DNA of 64,000 nt, taken from an uncultured Jannaschia sp. Lineage in GTDB: Bacteria > Pseudomonadota > Alphaproteobacteria > Rhodobacterales > Rhodobacteraceae. Below are positions 3,998 to 16,785 of the stretch, one piece after another. The notes under the pieces were generated by a model. The model was not told the DNA's origin, did no database searches, and worked only from the letters and a program-made list of their open reading frames with translations. The stretch lies in NCBI GenBank assembly GCA_947494145.1, contig CANLTZ010000003.1, positions 310,001 to 374,000 on the forward strand. The letters run 5' to 3'. Position numbers and translations under genes: made by a program. Position 1 is the stretch's first letter, and every line of letters starts with the position of its first letter.

Positions 3998-4411
3998 ATG
4001 ACGGATCAGATGTATCCCGATGGCGAACGAAGCTTCGCCGCCAATGCCATCCAGGACCTGGCGCCAGCCGATAAGCCCGCCCATATCTTCCGGCAGGGAG
4101 GGGTCTTTCTGGTGGGCGCGCGCTCAACCTCGTCGGGTGTGCCGGTCTTTCCCCCGCGCCGCACCTGCCCCGAAACTGGCGCGACCGATATGGAAACGGC
4201 GCTCTTCGGGCCGGGCGGCACGCTTTACGCATTCTCGACCGTCCATGTCTCGGCCCGGCAGGATACCCCCTACACGATCGGCTATGTGGACCTGCCCGAA
4301 GGACTGCGGGTGCTGGCCCAGCTGCGGGGCGGGCCCTGGGCCTGCGACCAGCCCGTCCTGCTGCGCGGCGACGACATGTCCTGGTGGGTCGAGCCAGAGG
4401 CAGCGGCTTGA
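3998..4411 (+). CDS. DUF35-type OB-fold protein, thiolase partner
   Basis: A 137-residue protein with the DUF35 C-terminal OB-fold pattern: LYAFSTVHVS, TIGYVDLPEGLRVLAQL and a final PVLLRG. Family members form complexes with thiolases or thiolase-like aldolases in acyl-CoA chemistry (for example ChsH2 with Ltp2 in steroid side-chain breakdown). The N-terminal zinc ribbon normally has four cysteines; here only one Cys remains there (RRTCPETG), so zinc binding is doubtful. Its stop codon overlaps the TTG start of the thiolase gene, which suggests a translated-together pair. It is the first gene of the six-gene acyl-CoA operon. Confidence 0.75.
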   Translation: MTDQMYPDGERSFAANAIQDLAPADKPAHIFRQGGVFLVGARSTSSGVPVFPPRRTCPETGATDMETALFGPGGTLYAFSTVHVSARQDTPYTIGYVDLPEGLRVLAQLRGGPWACDQPVLLRGDDMSWWVEPEAAA

Positions 4412-5553
4412 CCGCGCCCGCGATCATCGGGGCCGGGATGATCCCCATGGGCCGCCACAAGCAATCTTCCTACGGCGGCTTGGCCGTGCCCGCCTTGCGC
4501 GCGGCCCTGCGATCCTGCGACCTGACCCCGCGCGACATCCAATTGGTGACCTGCGGCCACGCCTTCGGCGGAATGCTCACCGGTCAACGCATCGCCAAGG
4601 AAGTCGGCATCGGCGGCGTGCCCATCCTGAACGTGGACAATGCCTGTTCGGGCGGTGCCTCAGCGCTGCAACTGGCCGTGCGGGAGGTCGAATCCGGCCG
4701 CGTCGATCTGGCGCTTGCCATCGGGGTGGACAAGCTGACGCAGTTCGGCGGCGGCACCCTGCCCCTGGTGGAAGAAGACCCGGAGGTCCGTGCCGGAATG
4801 GTGATGCCCGCCCTTTATGGGATGCGGGCGGGTCGCTACCTGCACGAGCGCGGCGAAGGCCCGGAGGTTCTGGCCGACGTGTCCCGGAAAGCCCGCCGCC
4901 ACGGCGCTGCCAACCCTTTCGCGCAATATCGCTCGGAAGTGACGCGCGACGAGGTTCTGGCAGCCCGCCCCATTGCCGACCCGCTGACATTGCTGATGTG
5001 TTGTCCGACGGGCGACGGGGCTGCCGCCGTGATCGTCGCCTCGGACGCCAAGCGCCGACAATTGGGGCTGCCCGGTGCGCGGGTCACAGCCTCGGTGCTG
5101 CATTCCGGCAAGGCCACCACGGGCTTCCGGCACATGCTGAAGCCCGAGATTACGATGAATTCGGCCCGCGACGCCTATGAGGCCGCGGGCATCGGGCCCG
5201 CCGATCTTGACGTGATCGAGCTGCATGACGCCTTTTCCATCGCCGAGCTCATCTATTATGAGGCGCTGCATCTTTGCCCCGAAGGCGACAGCGCAGGACT
5301 TCTGCGGGGTGGGCGCACGACCTATGGCGGCGACGTCGTGGTCAACCCGTCGGGCGGTCTTCTGTCCAAGGGCCACCCGGTCGGTGCGTCGGGTATAGCC
5401 CAAGCGGTGGAGATCTTCTGGCATCTGACGGGCCGGGCCGGGGCAAGGCAGGTGGACGGTGCCCGCCGCGCCATGACCCATGTCACCGGCGGCGGGATTG
5501 CGGGCATGGATCACGGCGCCTGCACCATTCACCTTTACGAGGCCATGACATGA
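4408..5553 (+). CDS. SCP2-type thiolase family protein
   Basis: About 381 residues. The nucleophilic Cys lies in DNACSGGASAL (residue 80). The C-terminal half carries ELHDAFSIAEL and NPSGGLLSKGHPVGASG, the HDxF and GHP motifs of the SCP2/SCPx thiolases. The usual HDCF is HDAF here, and the final cysteine-glycine motif is replaced by HVTGGGIAG. It should cleave 3-ketoacyl-CoA, often with branched or bulky chains, together with the adjacent DUF35 protein; a retro-aldol role is an alternative. The TTG at 4408 overlaps the preceding stop, has gagg upstream, and begins exactly at the conserved N-terminus (TAPAIIGAG). A longer ATG start at 4384 is less likely. Confidence 0.82.
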   Translation: MTAPAIIGAGMIPMGRHKQSSYGGLAVPALRAALRSCDLTPRDIQLVTCGHAFGGMLTGQRIAKEVGIGGVPILNVDNACSGGASALQLAVREVESGRVDLALAIGVDKLTQFGGGTLPLVEEDPEVRAGMVMPALYGMRAGRYLHERGEGPEVLADVSRKARRHGAANPFAQYRSEVTRDEVLAARPIADPLTLLMCCPTGDGAAAVIVASDAKRRQLGLPGARVTASVLHSGKATTGFRHMLKPEITMNSARDAYEAAGIGPADLDVIELHDAFSIAELIYYEALHLCPEGDSAGLLRGGRTTYGGDVVVNPSGGLLSKGHPVGASGIAQAVEIFWHLTGRAGARQVDGARRAMTHVTGGGIAGMDHGACTIHLYEAMT

Positions 5554-6353
5554 CCCCCGGGGACGACACCATGGCGCGGGCGCCGCAAAGCCCGGCGGGC
5601 ACGGGCACGGCCCATCGGGTACTGGCGATGTTGACCTTCCTGGCCGATCGCGACGGGCCGGTCACCGTGCAGAAGGCCGCCGAAGGGCTGGGTCTGGCCG
5701 CATCCACAACGCACAGGCTTCTGAACCTGCTGCGCGATGAAGGCTATGTCAGCTATCTGCCCGACAGCCGCAGCTACGAAGTCGGCCCGCGCTTCCAGCG
5801 TGTGGCGTTGCGCGTGGCGTCCAATGCAGGGCCCGTTGAACTGGCCAAGCGCAATGCCGCGCCGCTGGTGGACCGCTATGACGAGACGATCCTGCTTGGG
5901 CTCTATCTGCCGCAGGAATACGCAATCAGCTTCGCCGCGCGGGTCGATGGTCAGAAGAAGCTGCTCTACCAGATCGAGATGAACCGCCCCTTGTCGCTGC
6001 TCTGGGGCGCATCGGGAAAATCCATCATGGCGTGGCTGCCCGATAGCGTTTGCGCCGCCATCCACGCGAGCGAAGCGCCCGCACCTGCCACGGGCGCGCC
6101 GGTGCCAAGTTTGCAGGCGCTTGCCGAGGAACTCGCCCGGATACGCCAGCAGGGTTACGCCATTTCCGATGGGGAAAAGTTGCCCGATGCGCGGGGGATC
6201 GCAGCGCCTGTCTTCGGGCCCTCGGGTGTGATCGGGTCGCTGTGCCTGACCAGCCCACGCGCACGTTTCGCCCATGATGCACACGCTGTGGGCGCAGATG
6301 TGGCGCGCGCCGCCGCGGCTTTGTCCGCCGATCTAGGCGGGCGTCTTCCATGA
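5550..6353 (+). CDS. IclR family transcriptional regulator
   Basis: A 267-residue protein with an N-terminal winged helix (HRVLAMLTFLADRDGP ... AASTTHRLLNLLRDEGYV, residues about 20-80) and a C-terminal IclR effector domain (GLYLPQEYAISFAA, WGASGKSIMAWLP, GIAAPVFGPSGVIGSLCL). IclR proteins commonly sense an aromatic or organic acid catabolite and control the neighbouring pathway. The gene lies inside the operon, with ATGA overlaps at both ends, so it is probably autoregulated with the enzymes. An internal ATG at 5571 is an alternative start. The effector cannot be predicted. Confidence 0.85.
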   Translation: MTPGDDTMARAPQSPAGTGTAHRVLAMLTFLADRDGPVTVQKAAEGLGLAASTTHRLLNLLRDEGYVSYLPDSRSYEVGPRFQRVALRVASNAGPVELAKRNAAPLVDRYDETILLGLYLPQEYAISFAARVDGQKKLLYQIEMNRPLSLLWGASGKSIMAWLPDSVCAAIHASEAPAPATGAPVPSLQALAEELARIRQQGYAISDGEKLPDARGIAAPVFGPSGVIGSLCLTSPRARFAHDAHAVGADVARAAAALSADLGGRLP

Positions 6354-7582
6354 CGGGGCCCGCGTCGAATACCGCTGGTGCCGGACCGCTGAGCGGCACG
6401 CGCATCCTTGATCTGACAACCTTCCTGTCGGGGCCGTTCTGCACCCAGATCCTTGCCGATCTGGGGGCCGAAGTGGTCAAGGTTGAGACGCCCGCAGGTG
6501 ACAGTGCCCGCCATATCCCACCCCATTTCGTGCGGGAGGACAGCGTCTATTACCTGGCCAACAATCGCGACAAACGCTCTCTTTCAGTGGATATGAAGAC
6601 GCCGGAGGGGCTGGATTTGGTACGACGCCTGATCGCAGAAGCGGATGTGGTGGTGGACAATTTCCGCCCGGGCGTGCTGGCTAAGCTGGGCCTGGACATC
6701 GACGCTTTGCGTGCGGCCCATCCGACGCTCATCTGGGCGTCGATCACCGGGTTCGGGCAGGAGGGCGCCACACGCGACAAGCCCGCCTACGACATGATCG
6801 TGCAGGCCCTGTCCGGCGTCATGAGTTTGAATGGCGAACCGGGCCGTCCCGCCGCGCGCCTGGGCATTCCGGCAGGCGACACGGTGGCGGGACTTTACGC
6901 GACAATCGGCATTTGCGCGGCTTTGGCGCAGCGCGCGACAACGGGGCGTGGGCGCGCCGTGGACGTCGCCATGCTCGATTGTCAGCTTGCCATGCTGTCT
7001 TACCAGTCGGCCTATGCGCTGAATGCCGGGGTGGTGCCGGGGCCGCAGGGGGCGGCGCATGATTCCATCCCCACCTATCGGTCCTTCATGGGCAGCGATG
7101 GGCGCGAATTGGTCGTCACCGCCATCACAGATCGGCAATGGCACGGGCTTTGCGCGGCTCTGGACCTGACCGACCTGGCTGGCGATCCGCGCTTTACCGA
7201 CGGCGCGGCACGTTTGGCGCATCGCACCGCCTTATGGAAGATGTTGGAGGAGGCCTTCGCCACGCGCCCCGCAGCCGATTGGGTGGCACGCCTGGCCGAG
7301 ATGGATGTGCCCGCAGCGCCGATAAAGTCGGTGCCCGAAGCGCTAGAGGATGCCCGCCATTCGGGCCGCGGCATGGTCGTCGCGATGGAAGACACCGACG
7401 GGACACGTGCGGATGTGGTGGGCGGGCCCATCCGTTTCGACAATGCCAATCAAACCACCCCCCGCTACCCACCGTCGTTGGGCGCCGATGCCGCCGATAT
7501 CCTATCTGGCTGGCTGGGACTTGCCCCGGCCGAGACCGATGCGCTGGCGGCGGCAGGCGTGCTTCGCGGGGTCGCGCGGTGA
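6350..7582 (+). CDS. CaiB/BaiF (class III) CoA-transferase
   Basis: A 410-residue protein with the class III CoA-transferase pattern: an N-terminal GTRILDLTTFLSGPFC, ADLGAEVVKVETP, and the region YDMIVQALSGVMSLNG carrying the catalytic Asp that forms the acyl anhydride. The large-domain motif RGRAVDVAMLDCQLAML is also present. It should move CoA between carboxylic acids and thus activate the pathway's substrate. It starts in an ATGA overlap with the IclR gene and ends in a GTGA overlap with the hydrolase gene, so it belongs to the same transcript. The acid substrate is unknown. Confidence 0.88.
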   Translation: MTGPASNTAGAGPLSGTRILDLTTFLSGPFCTQILADLGAEVVKVETPAGDSARHIPPHFVREDSVYYLANNRDKRSLSVDMKTPEGLDLVRRLIAEADVVVDNFRPGVLAKLGLDIDALRAAHPTLIWASITGFGQEGATRDKPAYDMIVQALSGVMSLNGEPGRPAARLGIPAGDTVAGLYATIGICAALAQRATTGRGRAVDVAMLDCQLAMLSYQSAYALNAGVVPGPQGAAHDSIPTYRSFMGSDGRELVVTAITDRQWHGLCAALDLTDLAGDPRFTDGAARLAHRTALWKMLEEAFATRPAADWVARLAEMDVPAAPIKSVPEALEDARHSGRGMVVAMEDTDGTRADVVGGPIRFDNANQTTPRYPPSLGADAADILSGWLGLAPAETDALAAAGVLRGVAR

Positions 7583-8313
7583 CCGGATCGCATGACTGGG
7601 CCGACGGCGCGTCCAGCCTGCTGGCGTTGCATCCGTTGGGCCATTCCGGGGCCTTTTTCGGCCAATTGGACGCCGACTGGCCCGCCGTGAACATGGTGTG
7701 CCCGGACCTGCCTGGCCACGGCACGCGCGCCGCGGTGCTGCCGAAGACCTTCAGGGATTTCGTCGATGTCGCAGCCGACGCCATGGCCGCCCTGCCGACG
7801 CCCATCCATGTGTTGGGTCATTCCTTGGGTGGCGCCGTGGCGGGGGAGTTGGTCGCAACTGCGCCAGACCGCATCGCGACGCTGACATTGGTTGCCACGC
7901 CGCTGCGCGGGATGCCGGTCTTCCATGATCGCGCCTGCGCCTGCGCCAAGGGCGGCATGGATGGCGTGACCGAAGACACGCTGGCGCGGTGGTTCGGCCA
8001 TGCGCCGCGCCCTCAGGCCGCAATGGAGGCTTTGTCCGCCATGTCGCCGGGTGCGTTCGATGCGGTCTGGCATGCTTTTGCAGGCTTTCGCGGGTTCGAG
8101 GCCCTGCCCGGACCGCTGCCCCCGACACTGGTGATCGGCTTCACCGACGACATTTCGACACCACCCCATGTGCAGGATGACATTGCTGATGCGCTGCGTG
8201 CCACCGGCACCGCCGTCCGGCGGGTCGATGTGGCCGGGGCTGGGCATATGGGCATGATGCAGCAACCCGATGCGGTCCTGCGATTGCTAACCGATCATAT
8301 GGGGACAATCTGA
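7579..8313 (+). CDS. Alpha/beta hydrolase (enol-lactonase-like)
   Basis: About 244 residues. The nucleophile elbow is GHSLGG, the acidic residue lies in GFTDDISTP, and the catalytic His in GAGHMGMM. The N-terminus (LALHPLGHSGAFF) supplies the oxyanion region. This complete triad makes it an active hydrolase of a lactone, ester, thioester or ring C-C bond; 3-oxoadipate enol-lactonase-type proteins are the nearest general class. I used the GTG at 7579 because it overlaps the CoA-transferase stop and begins just before the conserved fold; the open frame reaches further upstream only inside the previous gene. Confidence 0.8.
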   Translation: MTGSHDWADGASSLLALHPLGHSGAFFGQLDADWPAVNMVCPDLPGHGTRAAVLPKTFRDFVDVAADAMAALPTPIHVLGHSLGGAVAGELVATAPDRIATLTLVATPLRGMPVFHDRACACAKGGMDGVTEDTLARWFGHAPRPQAAMEALSAMSPGAFDAVWHAFAGFRGFEALPGPLPPTLVIGFTDDISTPPHVQDDIADALRATGTAVRRVDVAGAGHMGMMQQPDAVLRLLTDHMGTI

Positions 8314-9080
8314 TGGAGGATGCGCTGAGCCTGGCAGGGCGGATCGCAGTCGTCACGGGGGCGGCATCGGGCATCGGCCGATCGGTGACCGAGACGCTTC
8401 TTGGCATGGGCATGGAGGTTGGCGCCCTGGACTTGCCGGGCCATGCCGTTCCCGACCATGCCCATGCCCTGCCCGCCGATCTGCGCGACGAAGATGCCAC
8501 ACGCGGTGCCATCGACGGTTTCGCCCAGACCCATGGGCGGCTTGACTTGCTGGTGGGCAATGCCGGTGTCAGCTTCGTGGGCGGCATCGAGGACGGGGAT
8601 GAGGGCGATTGGTTCCGCGTCCTCGACATCAACCTGATCGGTCAGATGCGGGCCAGTCGGGCCGCCCTACCCTGGCTGCGCAAGGCCGAAGGCGGCGCCA
8701 GCATCGTCTTCATGTCTTCTTGCGCAGCGCTCAACGGCATTCCGGGCCGCGCGCTCTATTCGGCCTCCAAGGGGGCGGTTCAGGCCATGGCCATGTCCAT
8801 GGCGGCCGATCTGATCGGGGAAGGTATCCGCGTCAATTGCGTGGCACCCGCCACGGTGGACACGCCCTTCATGGCCGATCTGATCGATCGGGCCCCGGAC
8901 CCGGCTGCGCAGCGCCGCGCCTTCGAGGCGCGCCAGCCCACAGGGCGCATGGTGAACCCCGCGGAGATCGGTCTGGCGGTGGCTTGGCTGGCCGCGCCGG
9001 TGAACCGCTCCGTCACCGGCACGACAATCGAGGTGGATGGCGGGATGGGCCAGCTACGACCCGTTCGGCAGCAGGCCTGA
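8313..9080 (+). CDS. SDR family NAD(P)-dependent oxidoreductase
   Basis: A 255-residue classical short-chain dehydrogenase. It has the cofactor motif TGAASGIG (residues about 15-22), NAG (LVGNAGVS), the catalytic Ser in MSSCAALNG, YxxxK in YSASK, and the C-terminal TIEVDGGM typical of FabG-like members. Asp in the beta-2 end (ALDLPGH) suggests NAD preference. In this operon it could oxidise a 3-hydroxyacyl-CoA or cyclic alcohol ahead of the thiolase. The ATG shares one base with the hydrolase stop. It is the last gene of the plus-strand operon and converges tightly on the minus-strand gene ending at 9084. Confidence 0.88.
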   Translation: MEDALSLAGRIAVVTGAASGIGRSVTETLLGMGMEVGALDLPGHAVPDHAHALPADLRDEDATRGAIDGFAQTHGRLDLLVGNAGVSFVGGIEDGDEGDWFRVLDINLIGQMRASRAALPWLRKAEGGASIVFMSSCAALNGIPGRALYSASKGAVQAMAMSMAADLIGEGIRVNCVAPATVDTPFMADLIDRAPDPAAQRRAFEARQPTGRMVNPAEIGLAVAWLAAPVNRSVTGTTIEVDGGMGQLRPVRQQA

Positions 9081-9083
9081 CAC

Positions 9084-9611
9084 TCAGGCGTGGACCGCCC
9101 CGTCAAGAAAGGCCGGATCATCAAGCGCCATGACCAGGCCCAGAAGCGACGCCAAGTACCCGTATTGCCGCAAGCCCATGGACATCCCCGTGACCGAGCG
9201 GGTGAAGACGGTGACCGGATAGCCGATGGCAGCCACGTTGGCGAAATGTAGCTCCTGCACCGGGTGGCCCGTTTCGGCGAGCGCTTCGCGCAAGGCTTCC
9301 GATTGCAGGTTCAGACCCGCCGGGTTGATGAGCCAGGCATCGGTGTCATCGTGATGCGCGTGGACATATTCCAGCAGCGCGCCTTCATGGTTCGACACGA
9401 ACGGCTGCAACGTCACGCCAAGATGGGCGGCACTGGCCACCATCCAGCCATGGAGCGTGGCAAGATCGGCAATGGCGCCATAGGTGCGCCTGTCGCGCCC
9501 GCCCGACCGCAGGTTGGACATGTTGGGCCCATCGATCAGCCGCAGGCTATGGCGCGCCGTGCCGGTCCGGCAGGCGCCCAGATCGGGGATGAACGGCAGG
9601 GGCGGTGTCAC
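9084..9611 (-). CDS. Divergent type II dehydroquinase-like protein, paralogue 1
   Basis: A 175-residue protein with the type II 3-dehydroquinate dehydratase fold pattern: LIDGPNMSNL, RRTYG, FVSNHEGALLEYVHA, NPAGL, ELHFAN. The Asn of GPN (30), the catalytic-position Tyr (44), the Glu-x-His pair (120, 122) and the NP Asn (96) are kept. The active-site His of NxGGLTHTS is replaced by Leu102 in NPAGLNLQS. The arginine-bearing segment after the EVH strand (REEFRRHS in the Mycobacterium enzyme) is also missing. It is therefore unlikely to be the shikimate enzyme. Its GTG start overlaps the stop of paralogue 2, so the two are translated together, perhaps as a mixed oligomer. Confidence 0.75.
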   Translation of the reverse strand: MTPPLPFIPDLGACRTGTARHSLRLIDGPNMSNLRSGGRDRRTYGAIADLATLHGWMVASAAHLGVTLQPFVSNHEGALLEYVHAHHDDTDAWLINPAGLNLQSEALREALAETGHPVQELHFANVAAIGYPVTVFTRSVTGMSMGLRQYGYLASLLGLVMALDDPAFLDGAVHA

Positions 9612-10150
9612 CGTTTGCCCGATGTGGTGAAGCTATAGGGCTGGCCATCACGGCGCACGGTTTCGCCCTCGCCCGCCCCAAGGAAGGTGTCGTCGTCCAA
9701 GGCCATGACGAGCCCCGTCAGCGCAGCGATATAGGAGTATTCCCGCAAGCCGGACACCATGCCCAGGACCGAGGGGCTGAAGACCGACGTCTGCCCATTG
9801 GCTGTCAGGTTGTGGAAATGTACCTCCACCACAGGCTTCTTGGTTTCCTGCAGCGCATGGCGGAAGCCCTCGGACGTCGTCGTCAGCCCGGCCGGATTGA
9901 CAAGATAGGCATCTGTCCCGGCGGCGGTGGCGTGGACATGTTCCAGGATGGCGCCTTCGTGGTTGGACACAAAGCAGTCGAGCTGCACGCCCAACCGCTC
10001 CGCATGGGTGGTGACGAGGGCATGGAGCGCTTCGATGGACGCAATCGCGCCGAACAGGCGCGGGTCGCGGCGGCCCAAATTGGACATGTTCGGCCCGTCA
10101 ATCAGATGGATCACATGGGCCTTGTCGCCCTGGCGCATCCCATTGGCCAT
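9608..10150 (-). CDS. Divergent type II dehydroquinase-like protein, paralogue 2
   Basis: A 180-residue paralogue of the next gene downstream. It aligns without gaps to the Mycobacterium type II enzyme around GPNMSNLGRRDPRLFG. The catalytic Tyr is Phe33, and the active-site His is Thr91 in NPAGLTTTS. Glu109 and His111 (EVHFHN) and the NP Asn85 remain; the arginines of the following loop are absent. Since Tyr-to-Phe at this position is known to abolish dehydroquinase activity in the family, another reaction or a binding role is likely. I chose the ATG at 10150, preceded by gggaggg; the frame extends to 10189 without a good site. Confidence 0.75.
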   Translation of the reverse strand: MANGMRQGDKAHVIHLIDGPNMSNLGRRDPRLFGAIASIEALHALVTTHAERLGVQLDCFVSNHEGAILEHVHATAAGTDAYLVNPAGLTTTSEGFRHALQETKKPVVEVHFHNLTANGQTSVFSPSVLGMVSGLREYSYIAALTGLVMALDDDTFLGAGEGETVRRDGQPYSFTTSGKR

Positions 10151-10185: not shown

Positions 10186-10214
10186 CCACCTTGCAAGGGG
10201 CCCCTGCAAGGTGG
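10186..10214. promoter_or_regulatory. Near-perfect palindrome upstream of the dehydroquinase-like pair
   Basis: ccaccttgc (10186-10194) and gcaaggtgg (10206-10214) are perfect inverted arms. The inner aggggcccct (10196-10205) is itself a palindrome, leaving only one unpaired A. The element starts 36 bases upstream of the ATG at 10150. It could be an operator for the nearby LysR protein or a hairpin ending the small gene at 10343. No T-tract follows on either strand. Confidence 0.55.
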
Positions 10215-12818: not shown

Positions 12819-13814
12819 TCAATCCGATAAACGCCGCGCAGCCGCAATCGCCTCCGGACCAATCCGGTCAGCGAACTGGTCCCAGACCGGGGCCATGGCG
12901 GCAACCCACGCGGCGCGTTGCGTGGGCGTCAACTCTCTCACCACGCCCCCCGCTTCGATGATGGCCTGCTTGGCCTCTTCATTGACGGCGGTGGCTGCTG
13001 CGTTTCGCGTCTCCGTCACCTCGCGCAAGATGGTCAAAAACTGGTCGCGTGTCGCGGGCTCAAGACCGCCAAGAAAGCGGACGCTGGTCACCAAGAGGTA
13101 ATCCAGCACGCCGTGATTTGTCTCGGTCACCCCATCCTGCATCTCGAACAGTTTCTGGCCGTAGATGTTGGACCAAGTATTTTCCTGGCCATCCACAACG
13201 CCCGCCTGCAAGGCATCACGAACCGCGCTAAAAGCCATGGGCCGGGGGACGACGCCCAGTGCCTCCATCTGGGCCATGATCACGGCTGACGACTGCACGC
13301 GGAAGGTCAGACCTGCCGCATCGCCGGGCATTTCCAGGGGCACATTGGCCGACATCTGTTTCATGCCATTGCGCCAGAACGCCAGCCCTTGCAGCCTGTA
13401 AGGCTGCAGGGAGTCGAGCAGCGTACGCCCCTCCGGCGCGCGTTGATATGCGTCCACCGCCTCGATATCCGAGAACAGGAACGGCAGGTCGAAGACTTGA
13501 AAGGCGGTGGTGAAAGCCTCGAACTTCGACAGGGACGGCGCGGCCATCTGCACCTCGCCCAACAGCATCGCCTCCAACACCTGGTCGTCGTTGTAGAGCG
13601 TGGAATCCGCGAAAACCTCCATGCACATTCGGCCATCCATCTCGGCATTGACGCGGTCTTGCAGCAGTCGCGCGGCCAGGCCCTTCGGGTGGCCGTCCGT
13701 GTTGGCGACGTGGGAAAACCTGACCACGACCTCCCCATCGTCGCAGGTGGCGAAGGCCGTCGATGCGGCGCAGGTCAGGGCCAGTATCGCGGCAAGTTTG
13801 GACAGGGCGCCCAT
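12819..13814 (-). CDS. TRAP transporter substrate-binding protein (DctP family)
   Basis: A 331-residue periplasmic binding protein with a signal peptide (MGALSKLAAILALTCAASTAFA). The DctP family pattern is clear: VVVRFSHVANTDGHPKG, LLGEVQMAAPSLSKFE, LPFLFSD, GLTFRVQSS and VVDGQENTWSNIY. The conserved Arg in TFRVQSS normally contacts the substrate carboxylate. TRAP binding proteins work with DctQ/DctM membrane subunits, but none is encoded nearby, so this is an orphan that must pair with a distant transporter or act as a sensor partner. It is divergent from the P450 gene. Confidence 0.88.
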   Translation of the reverse strand: MGALSKLAAILALTCAASTAFATCDDGEVVVRFSHVANTDGHPKGLAARLLQDRVNAEMDGRMCMEVFADSTLYNDDQVLEAMLLGEVQMAAPSLSKFEAFTTAFQVFDLPFLFSDIEAVDAYQRAPEGRTLLDSLQPYRLQGLAFWRNGMKQMSANVPLEMPGDAAGLTFRVQSSAVIMAQMEALGVVPRPMAFSAVRDALQAGVVDGQENTWSNIYGQKLFEMQDGVTETNHGVLDYLLVTSVRFLGGLEPATRDQFLTILREVTETRNAAATAVNEEAKQAIIEAGGVVRELTPTQRAAWVAAMAPVWDQFADRIGPEAIAAARRLSD

Positions 13815-15189: not shown

Positions 15190-15270
15190 AACTGCCTCAA
15201 AGTCACCCTAGTCAACTTTGCTCAATTCTTTGTAAGTTTGACTCGAAATAACTCTGTTGAAAGCGATCGC

Positions 15271-16785
15271 ATGTCTAAGAACTTCTTCCTGTCCGACGTT
15301 TTTGCACCGCTCTTCCCGAAAGCCTCCGACACAGATCTTGATGCCGGCGCGCCTTCAATCTCGACAATCGTTGTCGATGGAACAGCCGACGACGACGACC
15401 TGGCCGGCACTGGCGGCGCTGACAATATTACCGGCGCCGAAGGCAACGATGCCCTGACCGGCCTTGGCGGGAACGACACGATAGACGGCGGCGAAGGCGA
15501 CGACACGCTGAACGGGAACACCGGCAGCGATGACCTCATCGGCGGTAACGGCAACGACGAATTGTCAGGTGATGAGGGGCGCGACAGCCTTCAAGGCAAC
15601 GATGGCAACGATACGCTGATCGGCGGCGATCTGCAGGACACGCTGCAGGGCAATGCGGGCGATGACAGCCTTGTCGGTGGCCATGGGGTCGATGAACTCG
15701 ACGGCGGCGCTGGGGCCGACTTCCTGAGCGGCGACGAGGGCTCTGACCAACTGCTGGGTGGCGACGGTGCGGACACTCTGAACGGCAACACGGGTAACGA
15801 TTTCATCGACGGCGAACTTGATAACGACGAAGCCCATGCAGGCACGGGCAACGACACCGTGCGCGGCGGCCAAGGCGACGACACCGTCTACGGCGATGCC
15901 GGTCGCGACGAGCTTGAAGGCGAAGAAGGCAACGATTCGATCTTCGGCGGTACGAACAGTGACACCATCTTCGGTGGTACCGGTGACGACGATCTGCACG
16001 GTGATGCGGGCCAGGACATCATCGACGGCGAAGAAGACAACGACACGATCGATGGCGGCGGCGGCGACGACATTCTCGACGGCTCGGCCGGTGATGATCA
16101 GATCGAAGGTGGCGCCGGTCGCGATGTCATCGACGGTGGCATCGGCGATGACGAGCTTTCGGGCGGCAACAACGACGATGAGCTTTTCGGGGATAGCGGC
16201 AATGACATGATCCTCGCTGGCACCGGCAATGATGAAGTCGAAGGTGGGCGGAACCATGATACGATTTACGGCGATGAGGGCGACGACCTTATCGACGGCG
16301 GTCATGGGCGCGACCAGATCTGGGGCGAGGACGGCAATGACATCATCGAAGGCGGCGGCGGCAATGACCGGATTGACGCGGGCATCGACAATGATTCCGT
16401 GACAGGCGACTCAGGCGATGACCGCATCTTCGGTGGTGATGGCCAAGACACGATGGAAGGCGGCACAGGCGACGACCTTGTCAAAGGCGGCGCCGGTGAT
16501 GACACGCTGACCGATGGGACGGGCGTTGACCGGCTTTGGGGGGAAGATGGTGTCGACACTTTCATCATGGCAGTCGACGGCGAGCGCGACAAAATCCGCG
16601 ACTTCGATGTCACGTCCGATGTGATCGTGCTGCAGGACATGACCTTTGAGGAACTCACGATCCTCGACACGATCCGTGACCACGTGATGATCACCGACAG
16701 CCGTGGCGAGCAGATCCACCTGCTTTCGACGGATGGAAGCCTTCAGGCCGAAGACGTCACCGAAGCGAACTTCCTGTTCGTCTGA
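15271..16785 (+). CDS. RTX calcium-binding repeat protein
   Basis: A 504-residue acidic protein. After about 35 N-terminal residues (MSKNFFLSDVFAPLFPKASD...) it consists of about 44 back-to-back nonapeptides of the GGxGxDxLx type, with almost no interruption. About 70 C-terminal residues follow (DKIRDFDVTSDVIVLQD...), which resemble type I secretion signals. Such repeats fold into a calcium-bound beta-roll after export. No catalytic domain is visible, so it is probably a secreted structural or surface protein. No type I exporter genes lie nearby. The ATG at 15271 follows an AT-rich leader. The Asp/Gly-rich coding also leaves long open frames on the opposite strand, which are not genes. Confidence 0.88.
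   Translation: MSKNFFLSDVFAPLFPKASDTDLDAGAPSISTIVVDGTADDDDLAGTGGADNITGAEGNDALTGLGGNDTIDGGEGDDTLNGNTGSDDLIGGNGNDELSGDEGRDSLQGNDGNDTLIGGDLQDTLQGNAGDDSLVGGHGVDELDGGAGADFLSGDEGSDQLLGGDGADTLNGNTGNDFIDGELDNDEAHAGTGNDTVRGGQGDDTVYGDAGRDELEGEEGNDSIFGGTNSDTIFGGTGDDDLHGDAGQDIIDGEEDNDTIDGGGGDDILDGSAGDDQIEGGAGRDVIDGGIGDDELSGGNNDDELFGDSGNDMILAGTGNDEVEGGRNHDTIYGDEGDDLIDGGHGRDQIWGEDGNDIIEGGGGNDRIDAGIDNDSVTGDSGDDRIFGGDGQDTMEGGTGDDLVKGGAGDDTLTDGTGVDRLWGEDGVDTFIMAVDGERDKIRDFDVTSDVIVLQDMTFEELTILDTIRDHVMITDSRGEQIHLLSTDGSLQAEDVTEANFLFV

Follow-up and report, generated by a model that had tools for sequence, protein, structure and literature searches.

Tandem non-shikimate type II dehydroquinase homologues beside a CoA-dependent catabolic operon: a candidate hetero-oligomeric enzyme

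The gene pair and its active-site residues

The window analyzed here, the whole 64,000-nucleotide stretch of DNA from an uncultured Jannaschia sp., carries two adjacent genes, g1 and g2 (Table 1), whose products belong to the type II dehydroquinase superfamily (PF01220, DHquinase_II) by profile score and predicted fold. Both match PF01220 well above its cut-off of 23.3 bits (g1, 75.5 bits; g2, 106.8 bits), and their predicted models, as single chains, superpose on solved type II dehydroquinase structures. The best start of g2 is the ATG at 10150, just 5' of which lies GGGAGGG; an alternative GTG at 10189 would give a protein of 193 residues. The start of g1 overlaps the stop of g2, an arrangement consistent with translational coupling. 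Both reading frames are open and show strong codon-position bias (GC3 0.80). The earlier note on this DNA had described two adjacent, coupled genes with type II dehydroquinase folds and had proposed structural modeling as a check; the coordinates, the overlap, the family matches, and the models all agree with that description.

Table 1. Positions of the gene pair, of selected codons within it, and of the adjacent operon genes. The last column gives identity to the 12 best of the stated number of loci.
Feature	Position	Strand	Description	Identity
DUF35/OB-fold protein	3998..4411	+	OB_ChsH2_C, distantly BbsA-like	38-56%, 12 best of 16 loci
Thiolase	4384..5553	+	nearest solved relative is a benzoylsuccinyl-CoA thiolase subunit	67-73%, 12 best of 17 loci
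IclR-type regulator	5535..6353	+		42-56%, 12 best of 14 loci
CaiB/family III CoA-transferase	6350..7582	+		56-68%, 12 best of 19 loci
Alpha/beta hydrolase	7579..8313	+	distantly PcaD-like	31-44%, 12 best of 13 loci
Short-chain dehydrogenase	8313..9080	+	convergent with g1, 3 bases between	51-65%, 12 best of 21 loci
g1, downstream partner	9084..9611	minus	dehydroquinase II-like, 175 aa, GTG start
Glu109 codon of g1	9285..9287	minus	at the Asp88 place
Tyr44 codon of g1	9480..9482	minus	at the Tyr24 place
GTGA overlap, 4 nt	9608..9611	minus	g1 start over g2 stop
g2, upstream partner	9608..10150	minus	dehydroquinase II-like, 180 aa, ATG at 10150
His98 codon of g2	9857..9859	minus	at the Asp88 place, the residue given to the neighbor's site
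Phe33 codon of g2	10052..10054	minus	at the catalytic Tyr24 place

With residues numbered as in the M. tuberculosis enzyme (PMC6011038), Asn12, Arg19, Asn75, Glu99, and His101 are present in both proteins. The lid arginine, Arg19, is Arg39 in g1 and Arg28 in g2, and Tyr24 is kept in g1 (Tyr44) and replaced in g2 (Phe33). At the position of His81, the histidine of the THTS motif, g1 has Leu102 and g2 has Thr91; Asp88, which is Asp in all 20 canonical sequences, is Glu109 in g1 and His98 in g2; and the segment bearing Arg108 and Arg112 is absent from both. The earlier note was right that the active-site histidine is lost, that one protein has Phe for the catalytic Tyr, and that both keep the Glu-x-His pair and the Asn of the NP motif. 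It was wrong that the arginine-bearing lid loop has gone, the lost arginines being those of the later 108-112 segment, and it overlooked the replacement of Asp88 in both proteins. Its loss of catalytic residues is overstated: His81 and Arg108/112 are gone, but the other five residues named above are kept in both.

In the mechanism described in PMC6011038, His81 and Arg112 mainly hold the C5 hydroxyl of the substrate, the C4 hydroxyl is held by the neighboring subunit's Asp88, which also deprotonates Tyr24, the pKa of Tyr24 is lowered by Arg108 and Arg112, and the leaving C1 hydroxyl is handled by Asn75 and His101. The active sites of characterized enzymes are described as lying at trimer interfaces (PMC10772564). 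By the roles that PMC6011038 assigns, the residues lost here are mostly those that describe the substrate (Arg108 and Arg112 also tune Tyr24), and the residues kept are those that describe the chemistry. The earlier note had suggested a new reaction; given that the core residues are kept and that His81 and Arg112 mainly contact the C5 hydroxyl, it is more plausible that the substrate differs while the enolate chemistry stays similar than that the reaction is new throughout.

A subfamily apart from the shikimate-pathway enzyme

A profile search of genome contigs with a nine-member alignment returned 57 loci. The subfamily set consists of 47 loci, L059-L102 together with three plasmid loci (L034-L036). 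Among L103-L115, nine (L103, L105, L106, and L108-L113) resemble canonical enzymes, L107 contains a short fragment of a subfamily member, L104 is an outlier, and in L114 and L115 an ordinary aroQ is accompanied by a diverged paralogue. Searches of the genome contigs with g1 alone and of viral contigs with alignment A1 returned no relatives. The subfamily spans Proteobacteria and Actinomycetes, its hosts including Rhodobacteraceae, Sphingomonas, Azospirillum, Achromobacter, Alcaligenes, Bordetella, Pseudomonas, Granulosicoccus, and many Actinomycetes.

The residue pattern of the subfamily is distinct. All ten residues checked (N12, R19, Y24, N75, H81, D88, E99, H101, R108, and R112) are kept in 20 of 20 canonical rows, a set from which one atypical canonical-like row without H81 and R112 (CAN_L022) was excluded. 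The 38 single-copy subfamily rows exclude the fragments L102 and L107, the outlier L104, and the L114/L115 paralogues, and include the near-copies L070, L081, and L085. N12, R19, N75, E99, and H101 are kept in every one of them; H81 and R108 are found in none, versus 20 of 20 canonical rows, a contrast beyond what chance would give. Tyr24 is present in 34 of the 38 and His88 in 26, the two occurring together in 26. Eight rows combine Tyr24 with Phe or Trp at 88, and four (L036, L095, L096, and L101) combine Phe24 with Asp88. These four form a clade of singletons, with no dehydroquinase-like gene adjoining; L036 adjoins a fumarylacetoacetate-hydrolase-family gene and betaine-transport genes. 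Two further singletons outside the 38, L140 and L141, have Tyr24 and His88 as judged by eye.

This subfamily, g1 and g2 with it, is not the shikimate-pathway AroQ. Scores on the AroQ model, TIGR01088, are 71.7 bits for g1 and 100.5 bits for g2, below its equivalog cut-off of 169.85. Only three PF01220 matches occur in the genome, namely the pair (107.6 and 75.6 bits) and one AroQ (G000:C5:134714-135115, 194.9 bits), the latter carrying all ten checked residues. We also searched 23 host genomes drawn from the 47 loci, the hosts of the plasmid loci L034-L036 being left out. By score, the best type II dehydroquinase match in each of the 23 reaches at least 164.8 bits and is separate from the weaker subfamily member, and none of the 23 relies on a subfamily protein as its only dehydroquinase. 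A type I dehydroquinase standing in for AroQ can be rejected, as no match to one was found in these 23 genomes. The non-shikimate role that the earlier note had proposed is supported by the separate AroQ here and the AroQ-scoring matches in all 23 hosts. Compared with AroQ, the pair has replacements of His81, Asp88, Arg108, and Arg112 in both proteins and of Tyr24 in g2, consists of two gene products, is associated with a catabolic operon, and scores far below the AroQ cut-offs.

The neighboring operon and the spread of the pair

The operon beside the pair encodes a thiolase whose nearest solved relative is 7pxp (280.7 bits) and a CaiB protein related to succinate-glutarate and hydroxymethylglutarate CoA-transferases. 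A fuller version is seen at single-copy loci (L068, L071, L086, and others), where the order is hydrolase, DUF35, thiolase, IclR, CaiB, hydrolase, short-chain dehydrogenase (SDR), SDR, and where the single-copy dehydroquinase-like gene follows the second SDR and precedes a TRAP transporter. By protein search, a thiolase orthologue is present at 16 of the 47 subfamily loci; CaiB accompanies it at 14, and the two loci without CaiB are short contigs. The thiolase-bearing loci also have DUF35, IclR, and SDR genes and often a TRAP transporter. The co-occurrence with thiolase, DUF35, and CoA-transferase genes, which the earlier note had proposed to test, is thus supported, the window thiolase being as similar to its 12 best counterparts as Table 1 gives.

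The window shares with the single-copy operon the DUF35, thiolase, IclR, CaiB, second hydrolase, and first SDR genes. The first hydrolase and the second SDR were not found around the window operon, and the best match to that SDR anywhere in the genome is a distant 37%. A TRAP solute-binding gene at 12819-13814 was considered as a further part of the operon and rejected, since its identity to the DctP genes at the operon loci is just 25-28%. An acidic glycine/aspartate-rich repeat protein, which by eye looks like an RTX-type calcium-binding protein, is encoded at 15238-16785. g1 and g2 occupy the place of the single-copy gene, on the strand opposite the operon. Beyond AroQ and the pair, no PF01220 match was found in the genome, which leaves the pair as the sole candidate there for the step of the single-copy member. 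The single-copy operon members (e.g. L071, L088, L068, and L086) resemble the pair in their operon and in the loss of His81 and Arg108, but they carry Tyr24 and His88 in one polypeptide, and the loop that replaces Arg108-112 has 16-19 residues in them versus 9 in g2 and 10 in g1.

BbsAB is the benzoylsuccinyl-CoA thiolase and, with its CoA-transferase, serves the β-oxidation of benzylsuccinate. The window has a like combination, a thiolase with a DUF35 partner and a family III CoA-transferase, but its thiolase and DUF35 proteins score 314.2 of 750 bits and 47.9 of 250 bits on the BbsB and BbsA models, far short of the cut-offs. Moreover, benzylsuccinate β-oxidation is not known to include a dehydroquinase-like step. 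Attempts to name the substrate from the neighbors failed: for the SDRs, hydrolases, CoA-transferase, and thiolase searched, the characterized enzymes that matched were all distant or generic. Other members have other surroundings: MFS, CMD, and hydrolase genes in Pseudomonas helleri; AMP-ligase, HMG-CoA-lyase, and Ldh_2 genes in Pseudonocardia and relatives; and, for the Shinella, Mesorhizobium, and Streptomyces pairs, a molybdenum hydroxylase with SSADH, AA_synth, or amidohydrolase genes, not every gene being present in each. A role of the Shinella pair in the TRIS pathway was rejected, since PMC10848231 places the TRIS genes on another plasmid, p2_Teo12. Beside Pseudomonas members lies a gene for a 129-residue protein (L059, 11242-11631; L061, 11241-11633), the L059 copy of which has no Pfam match at 1e-5.

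Within the genus the pair occurs in 1 of 20 genomes. Among 295 genomes of the family, matches of at least 47% are found only in its own genome and in two others (G185 and G097), both single-copy; the remaining matches listed reach 39% at most. These two distributions suggest that the locus is accessory and was probably acquired by transfer. Tree reconstruction places each of g1 and g2 with the matching partner from L063 (100/95 and 99/93); the four sequences join with weaker support (81/85), and g1 and g2 lie outside the clade of the operon's single-copy members (14 rows, 100/97). The tree suggests three separate origins of tandem pairs, its bootstrap lacking full convergence. When all nine pairs are included, AU tests reject one common clade both for the upstream partners (p 0.021) and for the downstream partners (p 0.037); this weak rejection of a single origin vanishes without the Corynebacterium lemuris pair, L091 (p 0.25 and 0.16, respectively), so the number of independent events may lie anywhere from one to three.

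The Tyr24/His88 split and its possible meanings

The nine tandem pairs (the window, L034, L035, L063, L091, L094, L098, L099, and L100) divide two active-site residues in the same way. All nine downstream partners have Tyr24 and none has His88, position 88 being Ile in four, Gln in two, Leu in two, and Glu in one. Conversely, all nine upstream partners have His88 and none has Tyr24, which is Phe in two, Asp in one, and removed with the whole lid in six. Arg19 is present in 9 of 9 downstream partners versus 2 of 9 upstream partners. The genes lie close together, overlapping by 4 nt in the window, L063, and L098 and by 8 nt in L091, and separated by 10-24 nt in the remaining five, as measured with the start nearest the upstream stop. 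Partners past contig ends (e.g. those of L073, L102, and L107) are outside these counts. An additional search for pairs covered 296 genomes of one class (that of G695) and 347, 96, and 298 genomes of three orders (those of G697, G679, and G692, respectively). Its loci L116, L119, L137-L139, and L147 repeat known members, and L121, L123-L136, and L144 were left out; nine loci were opened (L119, L120, L122, L140-L143, L145, and L146), and none of them has a second dehydroquinase-like gene.

The division concerns particular residues rather than the sequence as a whole. At alignment columns Leu61, Arg66 (Arg19), Tyr71 (Tyr24), Gly72, Asp119, Phe158, and Arg193, every downstream partner retains the residue, whereas most upstream partners have lost it; Pro56, Leu107, His111, and Asp209 show the reverse, being mostly lost downstream and kept upstream. 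Over 55 conserved columns, the losses of the partners are not complementary, and losses shared by both exceed expectation in eight of the nine pairs. General complementarity between partners is thus not supported, the split being confined to the residues named.

If residue 88 works in trans on the Tyr24 of a neighboring subunit, as in characterized enzymes, the Tyr24/His88 split is the pattern expected of an obligate hetero-oligomer. The earlier note had raised a hetero-oligomer as one option; the recurrence of the split in nine of nine pairs makes that option much more likely, and we take it as the best reading, on evidence that is suggestive rather than conclusive. Within that explanation, the pair is best understood as standing in for the single-copy member of the operon. 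We would give about even chances to the fuller proposal that g1 and g2 together form a hetero-oligomeric, non-shikimate enzyme of the type II dehydroquinase superfamily that serves the neighboring CoA-dependent catabolic operon.

In such an enzyme, g1 would provide the working site, with Asn30 (for Asn12), the lid residues Arg39 and Tyr44, Asn96, and Glu120/His122, and g2, as the neighboring subunit, would lend His98 at position 88. His98 would assume the proton-relay role of the trans-acting Asp88 toward Tyr44. Activated by Arg39 and His98, Tyr44 would remove a proton next to a ketone to give an enolate, and His122 would help to expel or add water as the enolate collapses. Since His81, Asp88, and Arg112 are lost, a vicinal 4,5-diol like that of dehydroquinate is probably missing from the substrate, which would be a hydroxy-keto carboxylate that CaiB later activates and that the BbsB-like thiolase and its DUF35 partner then cleave. 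Among enzyme/pseudoenzyme heteromers, a comparable case is the aspartate transcarbamoylase-pseudo-dihydroorotase dodecamer, in which, as described in PMC7053772, an inactive homologue is needed for the active complex. The subunits of that heteromer are of different enzyme families, in contrast to g1 and g2, which are paralogues of one fold and each of which lacks a different residue of a shared site.

Several observations weigh against this proposal. The nine pairs are not nine separate events, and their losses show no complementarity over the 55 conserved columns. The singletons with Phe24 and Asp88 show that Tyr24 is dispensable in some lineage, and eight other singletons have Phe or Trp at 88. 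The Glu at 88 in g1 might itself be the base, which would make g1 self-sufficient. A mixed ring of threefold symmetry could have at most one complete site in three. Finally, a role in the operon has against it that the pair lies on the opposite strand and that the operon lacks several genes of the full version.

Four other explanations deserve consideration. First, the genes may encode two separate homo-oligomers, g1 being the pathway enzyme and g2 having diverged toward a second role (binding, regulation, or Tyr-independent catalysis). The g2 pocket, largely intact at Asn12, Arg19, Asn75, Glu99, and His101, would allow this, as would the existence of the Phe24 singleton clade, the lack of complementarity across the whole sequence, and a Glu at 88 of g1 that could replace Asp. 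We nevertheless think it unlikely, although worth keeping in mind, because the genes are tightly spaced in all nine pairs, the same residues are split in all nine, and six upstream partners without the whole lid have been kept beside a lidded partner. Second, rather than a hydro-lyase, the pair could be an isomerase or hydrolase-helper whose substrate is a lactone or a product of ring cleavage, comparable to the β-ketoadipate pathway's enol-lactone steps. An enolate-forming Tyr could serve either reaction, the operon has a CoA-transferase and a thiolase together with alpha/beta hydrolases that are distantly PcaD-like, and other members adjoin genes of the carboxymuconolactone-decarboxylase, fumarylacetoacetate-hydrolase, and metallo-β-lactamase-fold families. 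The PcaD-type matches, however, are 98.5 and 105.8 of 390 bits, far under the cut-offs, and the kept residues for the C1 hydroxyl (Asn75, Glu99, and His101) point to loss or gain of water; this explanation seems rather improbable to us. Third, functionless decay of AroQ copies would be compatible with the rarity of the pair in its genus and with the change of several residues essential to AroQ, but it is very improbable given the open frames with their codon-position bias, the recurrence of the same changes in two phyla, the retained catalytic core, and the conserved association with the operon. Fourth, a mere doubling of the ordinary shikimate-pathway dehydroquinase, which PF01220 membership and the predicted fold would permit, is practically excluded by the low TIGR01088 scores, by the separate AroQ here, and by the AroQ-scoring matches in the 23 hosts.

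Returning to the hetero-oligomer, its broader implication would be that a homo-oligomer with a shared site has been split, perhaps repeatedly, into an obligate two-gene enzyme, one paralogue keeping the lid base Tyr24 and the other the trans-acting residue 88, to carry out an undescribed CoA-dependent catabolic step; we hold this generalization tentatively, at a little short of even chances. If it is true, a heteromeric enzyme of dehydroquinase fold and an undescribed CoA-dependent step would occur in Proteobacteria and Actinomycetes. A search of titles and abstracts, scarcely covering subscription journals, returned no description of the subfamily or of a split dehydroquinase. Proteins of the group carry shikimate-enzyme annotations, for example in the records for Shinella and Mesorhizobium, and a catabolic step found in two phyla is therefore hidden by the label "type II 3-dehydroquinate dehydratase." Knowing the reaction of the pair would reveal the substrate of the operon, and the pair itself offers a clear example from nature of the way in which gene duplicates could come to divide one shared active site between them.

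Divergence within PF01220 extends beyond this subfamily. In six members from Alphaproteobacteria (L007, L008, L022, L031, L120, and L122), SFxS or TFRS replaces the THTS motif, and position 112, as read by eye, has no arginine (only L022 being tabulated); they likely represent a further non-AroQ group. In two uncultured gammaproteobacteria, a strongly diverged dehydroquinase-like gene (L114, 4898-5359; L115, 9986-10447) lies directly upstream of an ordinary aroQ and has His at the Arg19 position, Asn at that of Tyr24, and Arg at that of His101; this may be another instance, unrelated to the first, of a degenerate partner.
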